Shown: positions 4,571 through 11,053 of the stretch, one piece after another
How the letters are laid out: each line of letters begins with the position of its first letter
How positions within the stretch are numbered: position 1 is the first letter of the stretch
Assembly: GCF_013213975.1 (NCBI RefSeq)
Contig: NZ_JABSST010000012.1
Coordinates: forward strand, 1-49,299
Source of the DNA: Winogradskyella sp.
Lineage (GTDB): Bacteria > Bacteroidota > Bacteroidia > Flavobacteriales > Flavobacteriaceae
Length of the DNA: 49,299 nt
Direction of reading: 5' to 3'
The notes under the pieces: generated by a model
Seen by the model: the letters and a program-made list of their open reading frames with translations, nothing else
Database searches by the model: none
Told to the model about the DNA's origin: nothing
Program-made: the position numbers and the translations under genes

Positions 4571-5377
4571 ATGAACGCAATAAAACAGATATCACTTTTA
4601 GTTTTTTTAATGGGCACTGTTGTTACTACCGCACAGGTGGTATTTAATGCAGATGCTAGTAAAACAGAAATAGGCTTAAATGAAAAGGTACAAGTTTCCT
4701 TTACAATGAATAAAGATAATGGTGAATTTACGCCTCCAGACTTTACGAATTTTGAAGTTGTCAGTGGCCCTTTAACTTCAACCAATACATCGTTTAAGGA
4801 TGGTAGACCTAGTTATGAAAAATCCATTGCTTTTACTTTAAAGCCAAAGAAAAGAGGTACATTAATTATAGAAGGGGGCACCTTAGAAATTAGCGGTAAC
4901 ACTTACAGCTCTAATAGCGTTAGCATAGAGGTGGTACGAAAAAGAAAAAAGAACTACCTCATTGATAAAGATTCTTTAGCGAACAAAATATTTTTAAAAT
5001 TGGAGTATCCAAAAGGGACATTATTTGTAAGAGATTCTATAGTCGTACAATATAAGTTATACGTTGCACAAGATATTTCTGTTAATAGTTGGAAATTACT
5101 CGAAGACAGTAAAATTAAAAACGCAGAGGTAATTGATATGTCTCCAAAGGAAATTAGTGTGGTACAGGAGGATGTAGATGGCACCATATACAGATCCGTT
5201 ATTTTAAAATCATTACGACTTAAACCAAGTAAACAAGGTAAGCTGATTATTTCACCATTAGAACTAGAGGTGTCAGTAGGTATACCGTCAGGTAGAAGGT
5301 CATTTAATGTTAAGAATATTCAAGACCCAAAGGTCATTGTTGTATCGTCAGAAAAGGTAAAAGTTGAGGTGAACTAA
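4571..5377 (+). CDS. Short BatD-like paralogue without the C-terminal membrane part
   Basis: A 268-aa protein with a signal peptide (about 1-21, ending TTAQ). It is followed by the same opening as the adjacent BatD: both begin the mature region with a V-F-x-A-x-x-S-K pattern, then an N-E-[KR] motif, FTPPDF/FVPPNF and a KPKKRGT/APKKRGT strand. It covers only the first two Ig-like domains and ends at VKVEVN, with no membrane helix or cytoplasmic helices. It lies 42 nt after batC and one nucleotide before batD, so it is part of the operon. It looks like an internal duplication of batD that was trimmed and diverged. It is probably a soluble periplasmic subunit; how it relates to full-length BatD is unknown. 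Confidence 0.88.
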   Translation: MNAIKQISLLVFLMGTVVTTAQVVFNADASKTEIGLNEKVQVSFTMNKDNGEFTPPDFTNFEVVSGPLTSTNTSFKDGRPSYEKSIAFTLKPKKRGTLIIEGGTLEISGNTYSSNSVSIEVVRKRKKNYLIDKDSLANKIFLKLEYPKGTLFVRDSIVVQYKLYVAQDISVNSWKLLEDSKIKNAEVIDMSPKEISVVQEDVDGTIYRSVILKSLRLKPSKQGKLIISPLELEVSVGIPSGRRSFNVKNIQDPKVIVVSSEKVKVEVN

Positions 5378-5378
5378 A

Positions 5379-7148
5379 ATGAGATTGATTAAAAATATAT
5401 CTATTTTGATGCTTTTGTTCACTCTAACAAGTGTTTCAGCTCAGGTAAAATTTGAAGCCAAAGTGAGCAAAAAGAAACTTGGAGTTAATGAACGCTTACG
5501 CATAGACTTTGAAATGAACAAGGATGGGGACAATTTTGTACCACCTAACTTTAAGGATTTTACTGTAGTTGGTGGTCCTAACACCTCGGTTAGTAATTCC
5601 TGGGTAAACGGTAAACGCACCTACTCTAAAACTTATAGCTATTTTTTAGCACCTAAAAAACGAGGAACATTTACCATAAAGCAAGCCACAATAGAAATAG
5701 AAGGTGAAATCTATAAAACCTTCCCCGTTACTATTAATGTTACTGCTGCAGTAAATAGGCCAAATGCACCACCTGAAGCCTCAGATATAGCCGCTGAGAA
5801 TATACATTTAGTTGCCGAAGTATCTAAAACGAATCCTTATTTAAATGAAGGCTTCACGGTTGTATATAAATTATACGTGTCTCCTGAAACTGGTGTGAGT
5901 AATTGGAGGGAGAAAGACAACCCCAGATATAATGATTTTTGGAGTCAGAATATTGAAATAAAAGGCCTCAATATTCAAAAAGGACTATACAAAGGTGAGG
6001 AATACCGCTATGTTGTTTTAAGAAAAACAGTTCTATATCCGCAAAAAACAGGAAAACTTAAAATAGAACCACTAGTATTAGATATAACTGTTGAGGTCCC
6101 TACTGGTCGTACTGATATTTTTGGAAGGCAAATCATGACCAAAGTCCCAAAAATAGTAACTGCAGGAAGTCGAACTATAAATGTGAAAGCACTTCCAGAA
6201 CAAGATAAACCAGCTGACTTTAAGGGTGCTGTTGGGGATTTTACTTTTAAACTCACAACGAGTAAAACACAATTAAATGCAACCGAGTCTTTACAGGCAA
6301 AAATTGAAGTTTCCGGAAAAGGAAATTTGAAATTGTTTGAATTACCAAAACTTAATACACCAAGTTCCCTGGAGGTTTACGAACCAGAACATAAAGAAAG
6401 TGTCAGAACCAATTTAACTGGTATGCAAGGTAGTATCTCTGACATCTATACCATAGTACCGCAATTTAGAGGAAAGTATCCAATACCGTCAGTATCGTTC
6501 TCCTATTTTGATCTGGCTACTGAGTCCTATAAACGTATTACAACAGACGAAGTGGTTATTGACGTTCTTGAAGGACCTACAGCCGTAACAGCAACCACAG
6601 AAAATAATACACCTAGTACAAAACAAGCGGTAAGACCAAATCCCAATTCCTTTGCATTTATTAAAACCAATTCAAATTGGATAAGTATTAAAAGTGAGCC
6701 ATTTTTTAAGTCTTCAGGATTTTGGGCATTGTTATTATTGCCTTTTTTAGCTATTCCGTTAGCTATTGCGGTGAGAAATCAAAGAGACAAACGCATTGCA
6801 GATATTCAAGGAAATCGCATTAGGAAAGCAGACAGGCTGGCTAAAAAATATCTGAGTGAGGCTAAGAAAAATCTTGATCAAAAGGAGACATTTTATGAGT
6901 CTTTAGAGCGAGCACTTCATAATTATCTAAAGGCCAAGCTGAATATTGAAACGATTGATTTTAATAAAGAACGCATAGATGCTTTATTAAGTGAAAGCAA
7001 GGTTCAACAACCAGTTATTTCGGATTTTATCTCCATTCTAGAAAATTGCGAGTTGGCAAGGTATACGCCAATCACTCAACTTACTATGGAAAATGATTAC
7101 GAGAAAGCGGCAAAGACCATTTCATTAATTGATAAACAGATGCGATAG
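5379..7148 (+). CDS. batD: BatD, oxygen tolerance family membrane protein
   Basis: A 589-aa protein. The signal peptide spans about 1-21, followed by repeated Ig-like beta domains (about 22-430), a single membrane helix near 450-467 (FWALLLLPFLAIPLAIAV), and a cytoplasmic helical domain with LERALHNYLKAKL. This is the full BatD/DUF11-like layout. It starts with an ATG one nucleotide after the stop of its short paralogue, and its stop is followed one nucleotide later by the batE ATG. Expected to be the large scaffold of the Bat complex, with most of its mass in the periplasm. Confidence 0.94.
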   Translation: MRLIKNISILMLLFTLTSVSAQVKFEAKVSKKKLGVNERLRIDFEMNKDGDNFVPPNFKDFTVVGGPNTSVSNSWVNGKRTYSKTYSYFLAPKKRGTFTIKQATIEIEGEIYKTFPVTINVTAAVNRPNAPPEASDIAAENIHLVAEVSKTNPYLNEGFTVVYKLYVSPETGVSNWREKDNPRYNDFWSQNIEIKGLNIQKGLYKGEEYRYVVLRKTVLYPQKTGKLKIEPLVLDITVEVPTGRTDIFGRQIMTKVPKIVTAGSRTINVKALPEQDKPADFKGAVGDFTFKLTTSKTQLNATESLQAKIEVSGKGNLKLFELPKLNTPSSLEVYEPEHKESVRTNLTGMQGSISDIYTIVPQFRGKYPIPSVSFSYFDLATESYKRITTDEVVIDVLEGPTAVTATTENNTPSTKQAVRPNPNSFAFIKTNSNWISIKSEPFFKSSGFWALLLLPFLAIPLAIAVRNQRDKRIADIQGNRIRKADRLAKKYLSEAKKNLDQKETFYESLERALHNYLKAKLNIETIDFNKERIDALLSESKVQQPVISDFISILENCELARYTPITQLTMENDYEKAAKTISLIDKQMR

Positions 7149-7149
7149 T

Positions 7150-7911
7150 ATGAAACGAACATTAAAACTAATTTTCTGCTGTATTAGTCTTCTAGGATTA
7201 TCTCAAAATGATATTGTTTTCGAAGAGGCCAATGTGCTTTATAATGATGGTAAATTCGCTGAGGCAATTGATAAGTATGAGTCTATTTTAGAAAGAGGGG
7301 AACACTCTGCTGAATTGTATTATAATCTTGGAAATGCAAATTACAAGCTCAATAATATTGCCCCGAGCATCTATTATTATGAAAAAGCTTTGCTCTTAAA
7401 TCCAACAGATGAAGATATTAAAAATAATCTAAAGGGATATGCTGAAAACATGACTATAGATGCCATAGATGAGGTGCCTCAAGTAGGGTTTTCGAGGATT
7501 ATTAATAATCTAGTCAATACCTATTCCGCAGATACTTGGTCCAAGCTGGCAATTGGTGGAGTTTTACTGTTTGTCATTTTATTTTTGGTGTATCACTTCT
7601 CTTACGCGAGTACTCGAAAACGTATAGCCTTTATTTTTAGTACACTTGGATTGCTATTGGCTTGTTTTTCAGTGGCTATGGCTTTTCAAAAACAGCACTT
7701 AGATGAAAAGGATAATCCAGCGATTGTATTTGCTCAAGAAGCTAGAGCAAGATCAGAGGCTAATAGATCCTCTGAAGAAGTTTTTAGATTACATGAGGGG
7801 ACTAAGGTTCAAGTATTGGAAAATTATGAGGATTGGTACAAAATTCAAATAACTGATAATTCTACTGGCTGGATACCTAACTCAGACGTAAAACTATTAA
7901 AGACCTTTTAG
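7150..7911 (+). CDS. batE: BatE, TPR and SH3-like membrane protein
   Basis: The start is set at ATG 7150, giving 253 residues with a proper signal peptide (MKRTLKLIFCC..LGLSQ). A longer frame from TTG 7129 lies inside batD and would spoil it. TPR units occupy about 20-95 (YYNLGNANYKL and YYYEKALLLNP are clear). Two membrane helices lie at about 135-157 and 163-182. A bacterial SH3-type domain ends the protein (GTKVQVLENYEDWYKIQI then GWIPNSDVKLL), suggesting a peptidoglycan or protein contact. It is the last gene of the bat operon; no strong terminator is visible after it. Confidence 0.93.
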   Translation: MKRTLKLIFCCISLLGLSQNDIVFEEANVLYNDGKFAEAIDKYESILERGEHSAELYYNLGNANYKLNNIAPSIYYYEKALLLNPTDEDIKNNLKGYAENMTIDAIDEVPQVGFSRIINNLVNTYSADTWSKLAIGGVLLFVILFLVYHFSYASTRKRIAFIFSTLGLLLACFSVAMAFQKQHLDEKDNPAIVFAQEARARSEANRSSEEVFRLHEGTKVQVLENYEDWYKIQITDNSTGWIPNSDVKLLKTF

Positions 7912-7944
7912 TTTATATTTAACAAAATCGTATAATGTTAATGT

Positions 7945-7952
7945 TATCTTTG
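7945..7952 (+). promoter_or_regulatory. Putative -7 box (TATCTTTG)
   Basis: An exact match to the Bacteroidota TAnnTTTG element, placing transcription start about 11 nt before the ATG at 7967. No clear upstream TTG is present at the expected distance. It suggests that the small gene and probably the SulP module have a promoter separate from the bat operon. Confidence 0.45.
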
Positions 7953-7966
7953 CTATTGTGTAACTT

Positions 7967-8260
7967 ATGATTTTGAAAAGAAACTTAGCACTTTTTTTCA
8001 TGATGTTTTTCATCTTTATAATTAGTGCACCAACCATTATTGTATCAATGGATAAGTCATTTGATACTGAAATCTTCTTTGATGTTAACGAAGAAGAAGA
8101 AAAAGGTGGTTTGAAGTTACTTTTTGAAATCACCTCTCAGGATATTGAGTCTTTTGATCTAGATGTTTTAAATGCTGATAGAGATGAATACAACTTTAAA
8201 AAGTATTCAAACCCCCATATTAACTTAATTTTCCCTCCACCGGATTCTACGCTTACTTAA
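7967..8260 (+). CDS. Small membrane-anchored acidic protein of unknown function
   Basis: 97 aa. A hydrophobic segment at about 6-27 could be a signal anchor or uncleaved signal peptide. It is followed by an acidic patch (FFDVNEEEEKGG), a mixed charged region and a proline-rich end (FPPPDSTLT). No cysteines or known catalytic motif are visible. It lies between batE and the SulP gene on the same strand, with its own -7 box, and may be co-transcribed with the transporter. I do not recognise a named family. Confidence 0.7.
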   Translation: MILKRNLALFFMMFFIFIISAPTIIVSMDKSFDTEIFFDVNEEEEKGGLKLLFEITSQDIESFDLDVLNADRDEYNFKKYSNPHINLIFPPPDSTLT

Positions 8261-8345
8261 ATAAGATCCTAAATCTAGACCAACCATTGGTCAAATTAAT
8301 AATTCAATGAAGAGTGATACACTCTTACCCTATATAAATTACATT

Positions 8346-9911
8346 ATGATTAAATATTTAAAAAATGATTTACCGGCAAGTATTGTCGTATTCTTTGTAG
8401 CCTTACCACTCTGTTTAGGTATAGCTGTTGCCAGTGATGCACCACCTTTTGCTGGATTAATTGCAGGTATCATCGGTGGTATTGTTGTTGGATTGATTTC
8501 TGGCTCTCAGGTTGGTGTTAGTGGCCCTGCAGCAGGACTAGCAGCAATTGTTTTGGCTGCTATTGCTTCTCTTGGTTATGAAGCTTTTCTTGTAGCCGTA
8601 GTTCTTGGTGGAGTGATCCAAATTTTATTTGGAGTCTTAAAGCTTGGAATAATTGGATACTATTTTCCGTCCTCTGTTATAAAAGGAATGCTAACTGGAA
8701 TTGGAATCATCATTATCTTAAAACAGATTCCGCATTTCTTCGGAATTGATAAAGATCCAGAAGGTAATTTTGTTTTGTTTGGTGGTGATAACAACGTATT
8801 TATGGATATTATTAGTATTCCACAAAATCTTGGATTAGGGTCTACGATTATCGCTGTTGTAGCTATGGGAATTTTAATTCTTTGGTCACAGGTGCTTACA
8901 AATAAACATAACATATTTAAGCTTGTTCAAGGGCCACTTGTCGCAGTTGTTGCAGGTGTTATCTTCTTTATTTTGGCCAAGGATTCATCATTAGATATTG
9001 CCCAAAGTCATTTAGTACAAGTTCCTGTACCAGACGGAATAGATAGTTTTCTTGGACAATTTACACTTCCAGATTTCAGTGTTATAGGTTCAACAGAAGT
9101 TTGGGTAACCGCTTTTACCATAGCTCTGGTAGCGAGTTTAGAAACGCTTTTATGTGTTGAGGCTACGGATAAATTAGATCCTCAAAAACGAGTTACTCCA
9201 ACAAATCGTGAGCTTTTAGCGCAAGGCTCGGGTAATATTCTTTCAGGTTTAATAGGTGGTATTCCAATTACACAGGTAATTGTTCGTAGTTCTGCTAATA
9301 TTCAATCGGGTAACAAAACCAAAGCGAGTGCTATAATCCATGGTTTCTTTTTATTAATTTCTGTGATCATAATACCTAATGTGCTTAATATGATTCCATT
9401 ATCGGTATTAGCAGCGGTATTATTCATTGTAGGATATAAACTTGCAAAACCAGCAACATTTAAAGCGATGTGGAAGTCTGGATGGAAACAGTTCTTGCCA
9501 TTCATCGTAACAGTTTTAATTATTGTTTTCAAAGATTTACTTTGGGGAATTGGAATAGGTTTAGCCATTGGAATTATGGTTACCCTATGGCACAGTTATA
9601 AAAATTCTCATTTCTTGCACATTGAAGGCGAAGATGTTGATGATGGAAAAGTTAAGATGACTTTAGCTGAAGAAGTGACCTTTTTTAATAAGGCGGCGAT
9701 TTTAAAAGAATTAGATAGTATTCCGGAAAATTCAAAATTAGAACTCGATGTTAGAAAAACGCGATTCTTGGATAATGATATTATTGAAATTTTAGAAGAT
9801 TTTGCGTTCAAAGCAAAAGAACGAAATATTGATATCAAACTTTATTCAGAACGCGGAATTGTTGAGAATCCAGATAGTTTTATAGAATTTTTTAAATTAG
9901 AAAAATTGTAA
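8346..9911 (+). CDS. SulP/SLC26 family anion (probably bicarbonate or sulfate) transporter with STAS domain
   Basis: 521 aa from ATG 8346, chosen because MIKYLKNDLPASIVVFF is the usual SulP opening; the longer frame from 8307 adds 13 atypical residues. About a dozen hydrophobic segments fill residues 12-405, including the conserved VFFVALPLCLGIA start, GSQVGVSGPAAGLAAIV, and the GLIGGIPITQVIVRSSANI region. A C-terminal cytoplasmic STAS-like domain (about 420-521) follows. SulP proteins carry sulfate, bicarbonate or dicarboxylates. The next gene looks like a carbonic-anhydrase relative, so bicarbonate uptake is the better guess (inference). Substrate cannot be read from sequence. Confidence 0.9.
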   Translation: MIKYLKNDLPASIVVFFVALPLCLGIAVASDAPPFAGLIAGIIGGIVVGLISGSQVGVSGPAAGLAAIVLAAIASLGYEAFLVAVVLGGVIQILFGVLKLGIIGYYFPSSVIKGMLTGIGIIIILKQIPHFFGIDKDPEGNFVLFGGDNNVFMDIISIPQNLGLGSTIIAVVAMGILILWSQVLTNKHNIFKLVQGPLVAVVAGVIFFILAKDSSLDIAQSHLVQVPVPDGIDSFLGQFTLPDFSVIGSTEVWVTAFTIALVASLETLLCVEATDKLDPQKRVTPTNRELLAQGSGNILSGLIGGIPITQVIVRSSANIQSGNKTKASAIIHGFFLLISVIIIPNVLNMIPLSVLAAVLFIVGYKLAKPATFKAMWKSGWKQFLPFIVTVLIIVFKDLLWGIGIGLAIGIMVTLWHSYKNSHFLHIEGEDVDDGKVKMTLAEEVTFFNKAAILKELDSIPENSKLELDVRKTRFLDNDIIEILEDFAFKAKERNIDIKLYSERGIVENPDSFIEFFKLEKL

Positions 9912-9949: not shown

Positions 9950-10423
9950 ATGATAACAGAACAAGAAATTTTAGACGCACAGAAAGCTTGGGGAGAAGGC
10001 ATAGTGAAAATTGGTAAAGTATTCCTAGATAATGGAGATTATATTGATACTGCTAGAAAGCATATCGAAGAATTTTATAATTACGCAGAAGGTGAAGTAT
10101 TGTTTAAGCCTACTTTAGCCTCTGAGAAACAATTTCGAACTGATTTTGAAGGGGCATTGTCTTACTTCGTTGGTAGTAATGATAACTATCCAGAAGATCA
10201 TGGATTTGCAATTAAACCTTGGTCTCATGTACGTTGGGAAAGCATAGGAACCAAAATTATTGGTAATATGGCAATAGCTATGGGTAATTATTACTTCACA
10301 ATGGTAGATGGTGGTGATGTAGTAAAAGTAGAGTATTCATTCTCCTATACTAAGAATAATGATGGTGAACTTAAGATTATTCTCCATGGCTCCCATATGC
10401 CTTATAATCCTTTAGCATCATAA
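9950..10423 (+). CDS. COG4337/iota-carbonic-anhydrase-like protein (SnoaL/CaMKII-association fold)
   Basis: 157 aa, cytoplasmic (no signal peptide). The sequence has the features I associate with the bacterial COG4337 family, often mislabelled phosphoribosyl-AMP cyclohydrolase: an N-terminal AQKAWGEGIVKIGKV helix, EGEVLFKPTLAS, ALSYFVG, DHGFAIKPW, MAIAMGNYYF, and a C-terminal I-x-L-H-x-S-x-x-P-Y strand. Iota-type carbonic anhydrases belong to this group and carry HHSS at that last position. Here it reads HGSH (146-149), keeping the first His and the following Ser but changing the other two. It lies 38 nt after the SulP gene, so it is probably co-transcribed. Activity is not proven; family assignment is from memory of motifs. 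Confidence 0.72.
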   Translation: MITEQEILDAQKAWGEGIVKIGKVFLDNGDYIDTARKHIEEFYNYAEGEVLFKPTLASEKQFRTDFEGALSYFVGSNDNYPEDHGFAIKPWSHVRWESIGTKIIGNMAIAMGNYYFTMVDGGDVVKVEYSFSYTKNNDGELKIILHGSHMPYNPLAS

Positions 10424-10441: not shown

Positions 10442-10471
10442 AAAAGCCGCTATAATTAGCGGCTTTTTTTT
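10442..10471. terminator. Bidirectional rho-independent terminator
   Basis: A perfect 9-bp stem (AAAAGCCGC / GCGGCTTTT) with an 8-nt loop, A-run on the left and T-run on the right. It sits between the convergent COG4337 gene and the CvpA-like gene and can serve both. Confidence 0.9.
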
Positions 10472-10475
10472 ATAC

Positions 10476-10973
10476 TTAATCATCATCTATCTCACTCTTT
10501 ATAAGTGTAGGAAAGATCATAGGAGCTAAAGATTTTACAGGTTCATATAGTACACTTTCTTTCAAATCTTCTTTTTCCATAAAAGGTAGTGTGTTATTTA
10601 ACGTGTTAAATACAATTAATAAAATACTAAGAATAAGTCCAATTTTTAATCCGCCAAAGACACCTCCAGCAAGTTTATTAATAATGCCTAGTGAAGCAAA
10701 ATCTGCTAATTTGGTAAGTGCTTTACCCGCTATACTTATAGCTAATACAATAATAACGAATGTAACGGCAAAGGCTACAATATTGATGGTCTTTGTTGTC
10801 CAATCGACTTTAGATTCCAATAAGTCAGCAGCGAAGTAACTAAAGTGAATGGCTCCATATACTCCTAGGACTAAGGCAACAAGAGATGCGATTTCTACAA
10901 AAAGTCCTTTAAAAAGCCCTCTAATAAATCCAAATAGTAATAGAGCAGCTAATACAATATCGATTATATTCAT
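10476..10973 (-). CDS. CvpA family membrane protein
   Basis: 165 aa from ATG 10973. This start gives MNIIDIVLAALLLFGFIRG, the standard CvpA opening, while the 14 extra upstream residues of the longer frame are not family-like. Four hydrophobic segments are visible (about 4-22, 27-47, 63-85 and 100-122), with GLFKGLFVEIASL after the first, as in CvpA (colicin V production protein) relatives. The C-terminus is short and acidic (SEIDDD). In Bacteroidota the role is unclear; E. coli CvpA affects colicin V export and envelope stress. It stands alone between convergent and divergent neighbours. Confidence 0.88.
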   Translation of the reverse strand: MNIIDIVLAALLLFGFIRGLFKGLFVEIASLVALVLGVYGAIHFSYFAADLLESKVDWTTKTINIVAFAVTFVIIVLAISIAGKALTKLADFASLGIINKLAGGVFGGLKIGLILSILLIVFNTLNNTLPFMEKEDLKESVLYEPVKSLAPMIFPTLIKSEIDDD

Positions 10974-11053
10974 AGTTAGTAGCGGTTTAGACAAAAATAA
11001 TTTAATTTCTATCATTTAGAACTTATAACGTAAATCAAGACCGTTTAGTTTAC

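Follow-up and report, generated by a model that had tools for sequence, protein, structure and literature searches.

A COG4337 protein with an HGSH motif in the carbonic anhydrase slot of a Winogradskyella SulP operon

The window analysed here, i.e., a stretch of 49,299 nucleotides from Winogradskyella sp. (assembly GCF_013213975.1, contig NZ_JABSST010000012.1, positions 1 to 49,299 of the forward strand), encodes a protein of the COG4337 family of iota-type carbonic anhydrases (CAs). Its gene follows the gene of a SulP-family anion transporter and is convergent with a CvpA-like gene (Table 1). The left flank contains genes which we take to encode BatD-like and TPR proteins. In the following, G000 is the genome of the window, further G numbers stand for compared genomes and L numbers for compared loci.

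Table 1. Coordinates of the CA gene, of its key codons and of its neighbours in the window
Feature	Position	Strand	Remarks
COG4337 (iota-type CA) gene, HxSH subclade	9950..10423	+	157 amino acids; domain begins at the start codon
HGSH motif (H146 G147 S148 H149), equivalent to H197 H198 S199 S200 of all2909	10385..10396	+	
T55 codon, equivalent to catalytic Thr106 of all2909	10112..10114	+	alignment; role from PMC8132391
Y72 codon, equivalent to catalytic Tyr124 of all2909	10163..10165	+	alignment; role from PMC8132391
K102 codon, equivalent to all2909 position 154	10253..10255	+	third clade-specific position
SulP-family anion transporter gene, directly upstream of the CA gene	8307..9911	+	PF00916, E 1.8e-65; intergenic gap of 38 bases
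Terminator-like inverted repeat with T run, located where CA and CvpA genes converge	10445..10471		by eye
CvpA-like gene, flanking the exchanged gene on the right	10476..11015	-	syntenic in compared relatives
BatD-like genes, TPR gene and small open reading frame, left flank	4571..8260	+	syntenic in compared relatives

Motif, catalytic residues and fold

The COG4337 domain is located at the very start of the protein and the whole open frame of the CA gene comprises 164 amino acids, leaving no room for a signal peptide. The C-terminal part of the protein reads ...LKIILHGSHMPYNPLAS, with HGSH in the place of the canonical C-terminal HHSS motif of COG4337 enzymes. In phmmer searches against PDB chains, residues 2–153 were aligned end to end both with all2909 from Anabaena (E 4.1e-31) and with the three-domain protein Bn86287 from Bigelowiella (E 3.9e-103), HGSH sitting directly under HHSS of both crystallised enzymes in a gap-free strand. 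These two iota-CAs, Bn86287 (7c5x/y) and all2909 (7c5v/w), were the only distinct sequences matched in the PDB at E up to 1, and their domains share 44–50% identity with the window protein at full-length homology. This confirms both the assignment to the iota-type COG4337 family and the position of HGSH as proposed by the first-pass annotation. The best NCBIfam model was MetIndCarbAnhdr (NF047901; E 7.5e-38; profile positions 51–204 of 205 covered). In Pfam, at E up to 1, DUF4440 was found below threshold and the Pro_CA model (PF00484) gave no match. Because HGSH replaces HHSS, the protein is not counted among the canonical members but placed in a variant subclade that would act in the manner of iota-CAs.

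For all2909 it was shown that mutation of Thr106, Tyr124, His197 or Ser199 abolishes activity and that mutation of Lys180 does not; moreover, the Ala mutants of the His and the Ser in domain 3 of Bn86287 drop 4- and 8-fold in activity (Hirakawa 2021; PMC8132391). Counted from Thr106 on the alignment, HHSS spans residues 197–200 of all2909, and the catalytic pair therefore corresponds to the His and Ser at the first and third motif positions. All four mutation-proven positions are kept in the window protein (Thr106 as T55, Tyr124 as Y72, His197 as H146 and Ser199 as S148), as is Phe138 (F86). The first-pass annotation had considered a variant active site or a loss of activity; its family and strand equivalence hold, and this further interpretation is not supported, since the changed positions are the equivalents of 198 and 200 and the mutated catalytic residues of the motif are 197 and 199. 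In an alignment of 107 domains (the window protein, 103 domains of the L loci and three references taken from the PDB match sequences), T55, Y72, F86 and H146 are identical in every row and S148 in 106, positions 147 and 149 being variable. The sole row without the Ser199 equivalent, L133 with the motif HHRS, stems from a genome with two beta-CA matches (G400), and this COG4337 gene may be decaying. The conserved part of the signature is HxS, suggesting that HHSS is too narrow as a signature and that searches with it would miss the clade described below.

The AlphaFold model of the window protein (pLDDT 93.5) has the cone-shaped alpha+beta NTF2-like fold, residues 141–149 forming one strand. 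In VIA-align it reaches Z-scores of 24.2 (7c5x), 24.1 (7c5y) and 24.1 (7c5v), the next row having 14.3. In a modelling study of the Thalassiosira enzyme (PMC8395977), the sheet face bearing HHHSS was reported to be buried in the dimer interface, a beta-sandwich, with less than 4.5 Å between the two copies of the second His (His257 in Bn86287) and with the first His and Ser pointing to the core. By analogy, position 198 is a dimer-interface position in the relatives and position 200 would be one likewise by strand alternation. In the window protein, residues 147 and 149 probably take the same interface role, in line with the predicted model.

The HxSH clade

The 107 domains were chosen by similarity to the window protein, so that the motif proportions are not population frequencies: HDSH was found in 47 rows, HHSS in 33, HGSH in 15 (window included), HKSS and HQSS in 3 each, HKSA in 2 and HSSH, HSST, HNSA and HHRS in one row each. 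Left out before counting were broken or cut-off genes (L053, L054, L041 and L158, with L041 and L053 reading HDSH), the duplicates L159 and L165 and three copies of the window itself (L001, L085 and L126). For the order-level search, loci were taken from the best 30 matches, weaker matches lying outside the tree. With 15 of 107 rows, HGSH is not an isolated mutation. The 63 HxSH rows form one side of a single branch with a support of 100/97 including the motif columns and of 92/97 without these four columns, a single change sufficing in 93% of the bootstrap trees. The records of this clade are labelled Bacteroidota, Planctomycetota, Calditrichota, Balneolota, Armatimonadota and Bacillota, labels that may err, the records being mostly metagenome-assembled. 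The idea that HGSH defines a flavobacterial clade, raised in the first-pass annotation, was thus rejected by the alignment and the tree of the 107 domains, in which HxSH extends across several phyla and no fewer than nine switches among D, G and S are needed at position 147 within the clade.

These repeated switches would fit the explanation that HGSH is a trivial product of neutral motif drift and structurally meaningless. We regard this as unlikely, since H149 is invariant in 63/63 HxSH rows and is present solely with D, G or S at position 147, whereas the other 44 rows have S, A or T at 149 and, in 42 of them, H, K or Q at 147. The strongest other clade-specific position is 102, being K, R, Q or N in HxSH proteins and mostly I, V, Y or F elsewhere. 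In the clade, 31 columns are invariant, pocket residues included, the last three of these columns being perhaps filled by few rows. For a partner compensating the D/G switch at 147, the alignment gave weak signals only.

The rows closest to the window protein are L008 (a Flavobacterium record with HGSH, 80% identity) and L010. As judged by eye without a predictor, some HxSH genes such as those of L012 and L018 have lipoprotein-like leaders, and no leader is visible in the window protein and in most Planctomycetota HxSH records. Across 47 loci, no group of conserved neighbours was found in more than 5.

Exchange of the carbonic anhydrase gene in the SulP locus

In the same-genus genomes G060, G067, G021 and G017 (L115, L116, L120 and L123), the shared genes are ordered BatD, TPR, small open reading frame, SulP, beta-CA, CvpA (reverse strand), a further open reading frame and PheS. 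The window shows the identical gene order, except that the COG4337 gene occupies the beta-CA slot, as can be seen by comparison to L115 (5842-6471), where the same SulP-CvpA slot is filled by a protein of the unrelated family PF00484. Beta-CAs are a zinc-enzyme family. Hairpins resembling the terminator of the window were found downstream of the beta-CA gene in L115, L116 and L120, and blastn matches to relatives cover the end of SulP, resume at the terminator/CvpA side and do not extend across the CA gene. Content of guanine plus cytosine (GC), both overall and at third codon positions (GC3), matches that of the neighbours, composition thereby giving no hint of a recent transfer. It appears that the beta-CA was lost and that the COG4337 gene is now present in the same operon slot. 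As G067, the genome nearest to the window on a genus tree (four proteins from 10 of the 68 genus genomes described below), has a beta-CA, the swap looks recent.

Further loci vary at this position. In L008 an HGSH gene is located in the same Bat-CvpA locus, together with a DUF2490 gene and a STAS-type SulP (L008:4517-8721), which suggests that the Bat-CvpA locus exchanges CO2/bicarbonate genes. A relative of this DUF2490 gene also adjoins the COG4337 fragment of G481 (L200). The SulP-beta-CA operon contains a second SulP in G074, G024 and G027 (L117-L119); the extra genes are of two different kinds, and the one in L117 follows the beta-CA whereas those in L118 and L119 precede it. In G036 and G480, SulP directly adjoins CvpA with no CA at that locus, and the COG4337 gene, reading HKSS, lies elsewhere beside another SulP. 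The HKSS genes of G017, G036 and G480 adjoin SulP as the window gene does and come from the same genus, but they belong to another clade and another locus, have the order CA-then-SulP and are paired with a STAS-bearing SulP (STAS tested in the G036 copy only).

A genome search directed at PF00484 (beta-CA) and PF00194 (alpha-CA) found neither in G000; among the control genomes it was positive in 9/14 for PF00484 and in 1/14 for PF00194. In the genus sample of 68 genomes, 59 of which have a completeness of 90% or more and a contamination of 5% or less, beta-CA was not found in three, namely G000 and G036 from a set with 58/60 positive genomes and G480 from a set with 7/8 positive genomes. COG4337 genes were found in G000, G036, G480, G017 and G070 and a fragment in G481, and are thus present in 3/3 genus genomes without a beta-CA match vs. 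2/65 others (3/65 with the G481 fragment). The absence of beta-CA needs three separate changes on the 10-genome tree, also when only well-supported branches are used. Among five checked carriers of HxSH genes, beta-CA was not found in G000, G046, G058 and G271 and is present in G158.

An exclusion of beta-CA and COG4337 throughout the phylum was rejected: beta-CA was present in 13/22 COG4337 carriers vs. 227/373 others (p = 1.0; phylum sample, E up to 0.001), and the genus pattern is therefore not general. Together with the SulP genes of G036 and G480 that stand at this locus without a CA and with the gamma-CAs and COG4875 proteins, which lay outside the search of G000, this is in line with a merely coincidental swap, in which loss of the beta-CA and insertion of the COG4337 gene are unrelated and the organism relies on another CA (gamma-type, COG4875 or unassembled). 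We consider such a coincidence rather improbable because slot and orientation are identical, with 38 bases after SulP, because the Bat-CvpA locus of L008 is filled by the same family and because the other two species without a beta-CA match, G036 and G480, also have a COG4337 gene.

Proposed function and relation to known enzymes

We propose, with a probability of roughly 75%, that the window gene encodes a working, cytosolic and probably metal-independent COG4337-type CA that replaced the beta-CA in the SulP-CA operon, its CA activity being an inference. A working CA is the best explanation since the pocket residues are retained, the fold is kept and the beta-CA slot is occupied. CO2 hydration would proceed as proposed for all2909 and Bn86287, i.e., Thr55 and Tyr72 would activate the water molecule together with Ser148, Tyr72 would hand the proton on and His146 would line the deep end of the pocket. 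HGSH alters only residues 147 and 149 on the opposite face of the strand, which in the relatives are packed into the beta-sandwich dimer interface, and the interface His would thereby shift by two residues along the same strand face. In the cell, the CA may supply bicarbonate to carboxylases and may contribute to pH balance jointly with the SulP transporter. A one-way enzyme converting CO2 to bicarbonate would fit the need of a heterotroph for bicarbonate. COG4337 enzymes were reported to hydrate CO2 and to have a very low dehydration activity (PMC8132391). Moreover, bicarbonate can be transported by SulP members. In Thiomicrospira pelophila, a species with a listed iota-type CA of the carboxysome, one SulP (SulP-CS) restores growth of a CA-deficient E. 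coli strain and a second SulP fails to do so (PMC12628692); bicarbonate is a candidate substrate of the window SulP.

Next to the phylum sample and the CA families outside the genome search, several points weigh against this proposal. The window protein scores 130 bits vs. a curated equivalog cut-off of 350 for NF047901, and the window SulP 153.9 bits vs. a cut-off of 880 for the BicA model NF050096. The G000 assembly is 97% complete and in 164 pieces. The Fisher value for the genus association (2.0e-4; 4.0e-4 with the fragment included) takes no account of kinship and was calculated with the pattern already known, and the three changes on the genus tree could include a loss followed by regain of the beta-CA in G017. 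SulP is near the COG4337 gene in just 5/54 first-examined loci (sharing the strand of the CA gene in L001, which is the window copy, L002, L003 and L008, and on the opposite strand in L041) and in 1/24 phylum loci (L143), although many loci of both sets extend at most 1.5 kb past the gene on a side, so that some neighbours may be missed; a general pairing of HxSH genes with SulP was rejected on these counts. Finally, no activity assay of any HxSH protein was found in print among the openly licensed PMC literature listed.

The lack of a proven HxSH enzyme in this literature would also fit HxSH proteins that are inactive or re-purposed NTF2-like proteins, e.g., bicarbonate- or anion-binding partners of SulP, for which the loss-of-function reading would hold, and some relatives indeed adjoin other anion transporters. 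We judge this to be very unlikely, as all four mutation-tested residues are retained, the gene fills the beta-CA slot in a genome in which neither beta- nor alpha-CA was found and the HxSH-invariant columns include the pocket residues. A tentative and doubtful extension of the proposed CA function is that the HxSH clade represents a distinct kind of metal-independent CA, with a dimer interface remodelled by D/G147-H149 and K102 to give a new two-fold site that may bind a proton, an anion or a metal ion or serve in SulP docking. In some bacteria such a CA would then have become the only one, having taken over, without zinc, from the housekeeping beta-CA of the SulP-CA unit.

The window protein resembles all2909 and Bn86287 (PMC8132391) in full-length homology, fold and the four catalytic residues, but these carry HHSS whereas it has HGSH, is leaderless and is encoded in a SulP operon. 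With the COG4875 iota-CAs, such as LCIP63 of Thalassiosira and BteCA-iota of Burkholderia, reported as Mn or speculated to be Zn enzymes, the NTF2-like fold and the strand motif region are common; COG4875 was compared by fold alone, its relative 3h51 being distant from the window model (Z 14.2, 22% identity). Most bacterial COG4337 members are predicted to be periplasmic or extracellular (PMC8132391), and the cellular role of the bacterial iota-type CAs is little known. An unrelated, probably zinc-free CA in the beta-CA slot of a genome in which no beta- or alpha-CA was found would make the in vivo role of COG4337 simply testable. In the excerpts of the openly licensed PMC papers listed, including PMC8132391, PMC8395977, PMC7191908, PMC8425729, PMC10880623 and PMC12628692, there is no description of the HxSH clade or of a beta-to-iota swap in a SulP operon.

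A phage origin of the CA gene was rejected, as neither viral contigs (one unconfirmed pattern match) nor phage records contain a confirmed relative; the neighbouring SulP likewise has no relative in viral contigs. Plasmid relatives of the CA all show less than 60% identity (27/27), and 10 of the 25 listed records of COG4337 plasmid relatives bear the name phosphoribosyl-AMP cyclohydrolase, an apparent misannotation. In the Acidobacteriota-labelled loci L046, L050 and L051, the COG4337 gene is immediately preceded by genes of a common family; a supposed fusion in L046 was dropped since an internal start lies within the long open frame immediately before the domain. L161 (G545) contains a tandem pair of COG4337 genes with the motifs HSST and HNSA. 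In the order family f11 (L004, L005, L163-L186), which comprises small genomes, the HDSH form is frequent, G046 and G058 being its members checked for beta-CA with the result given above.
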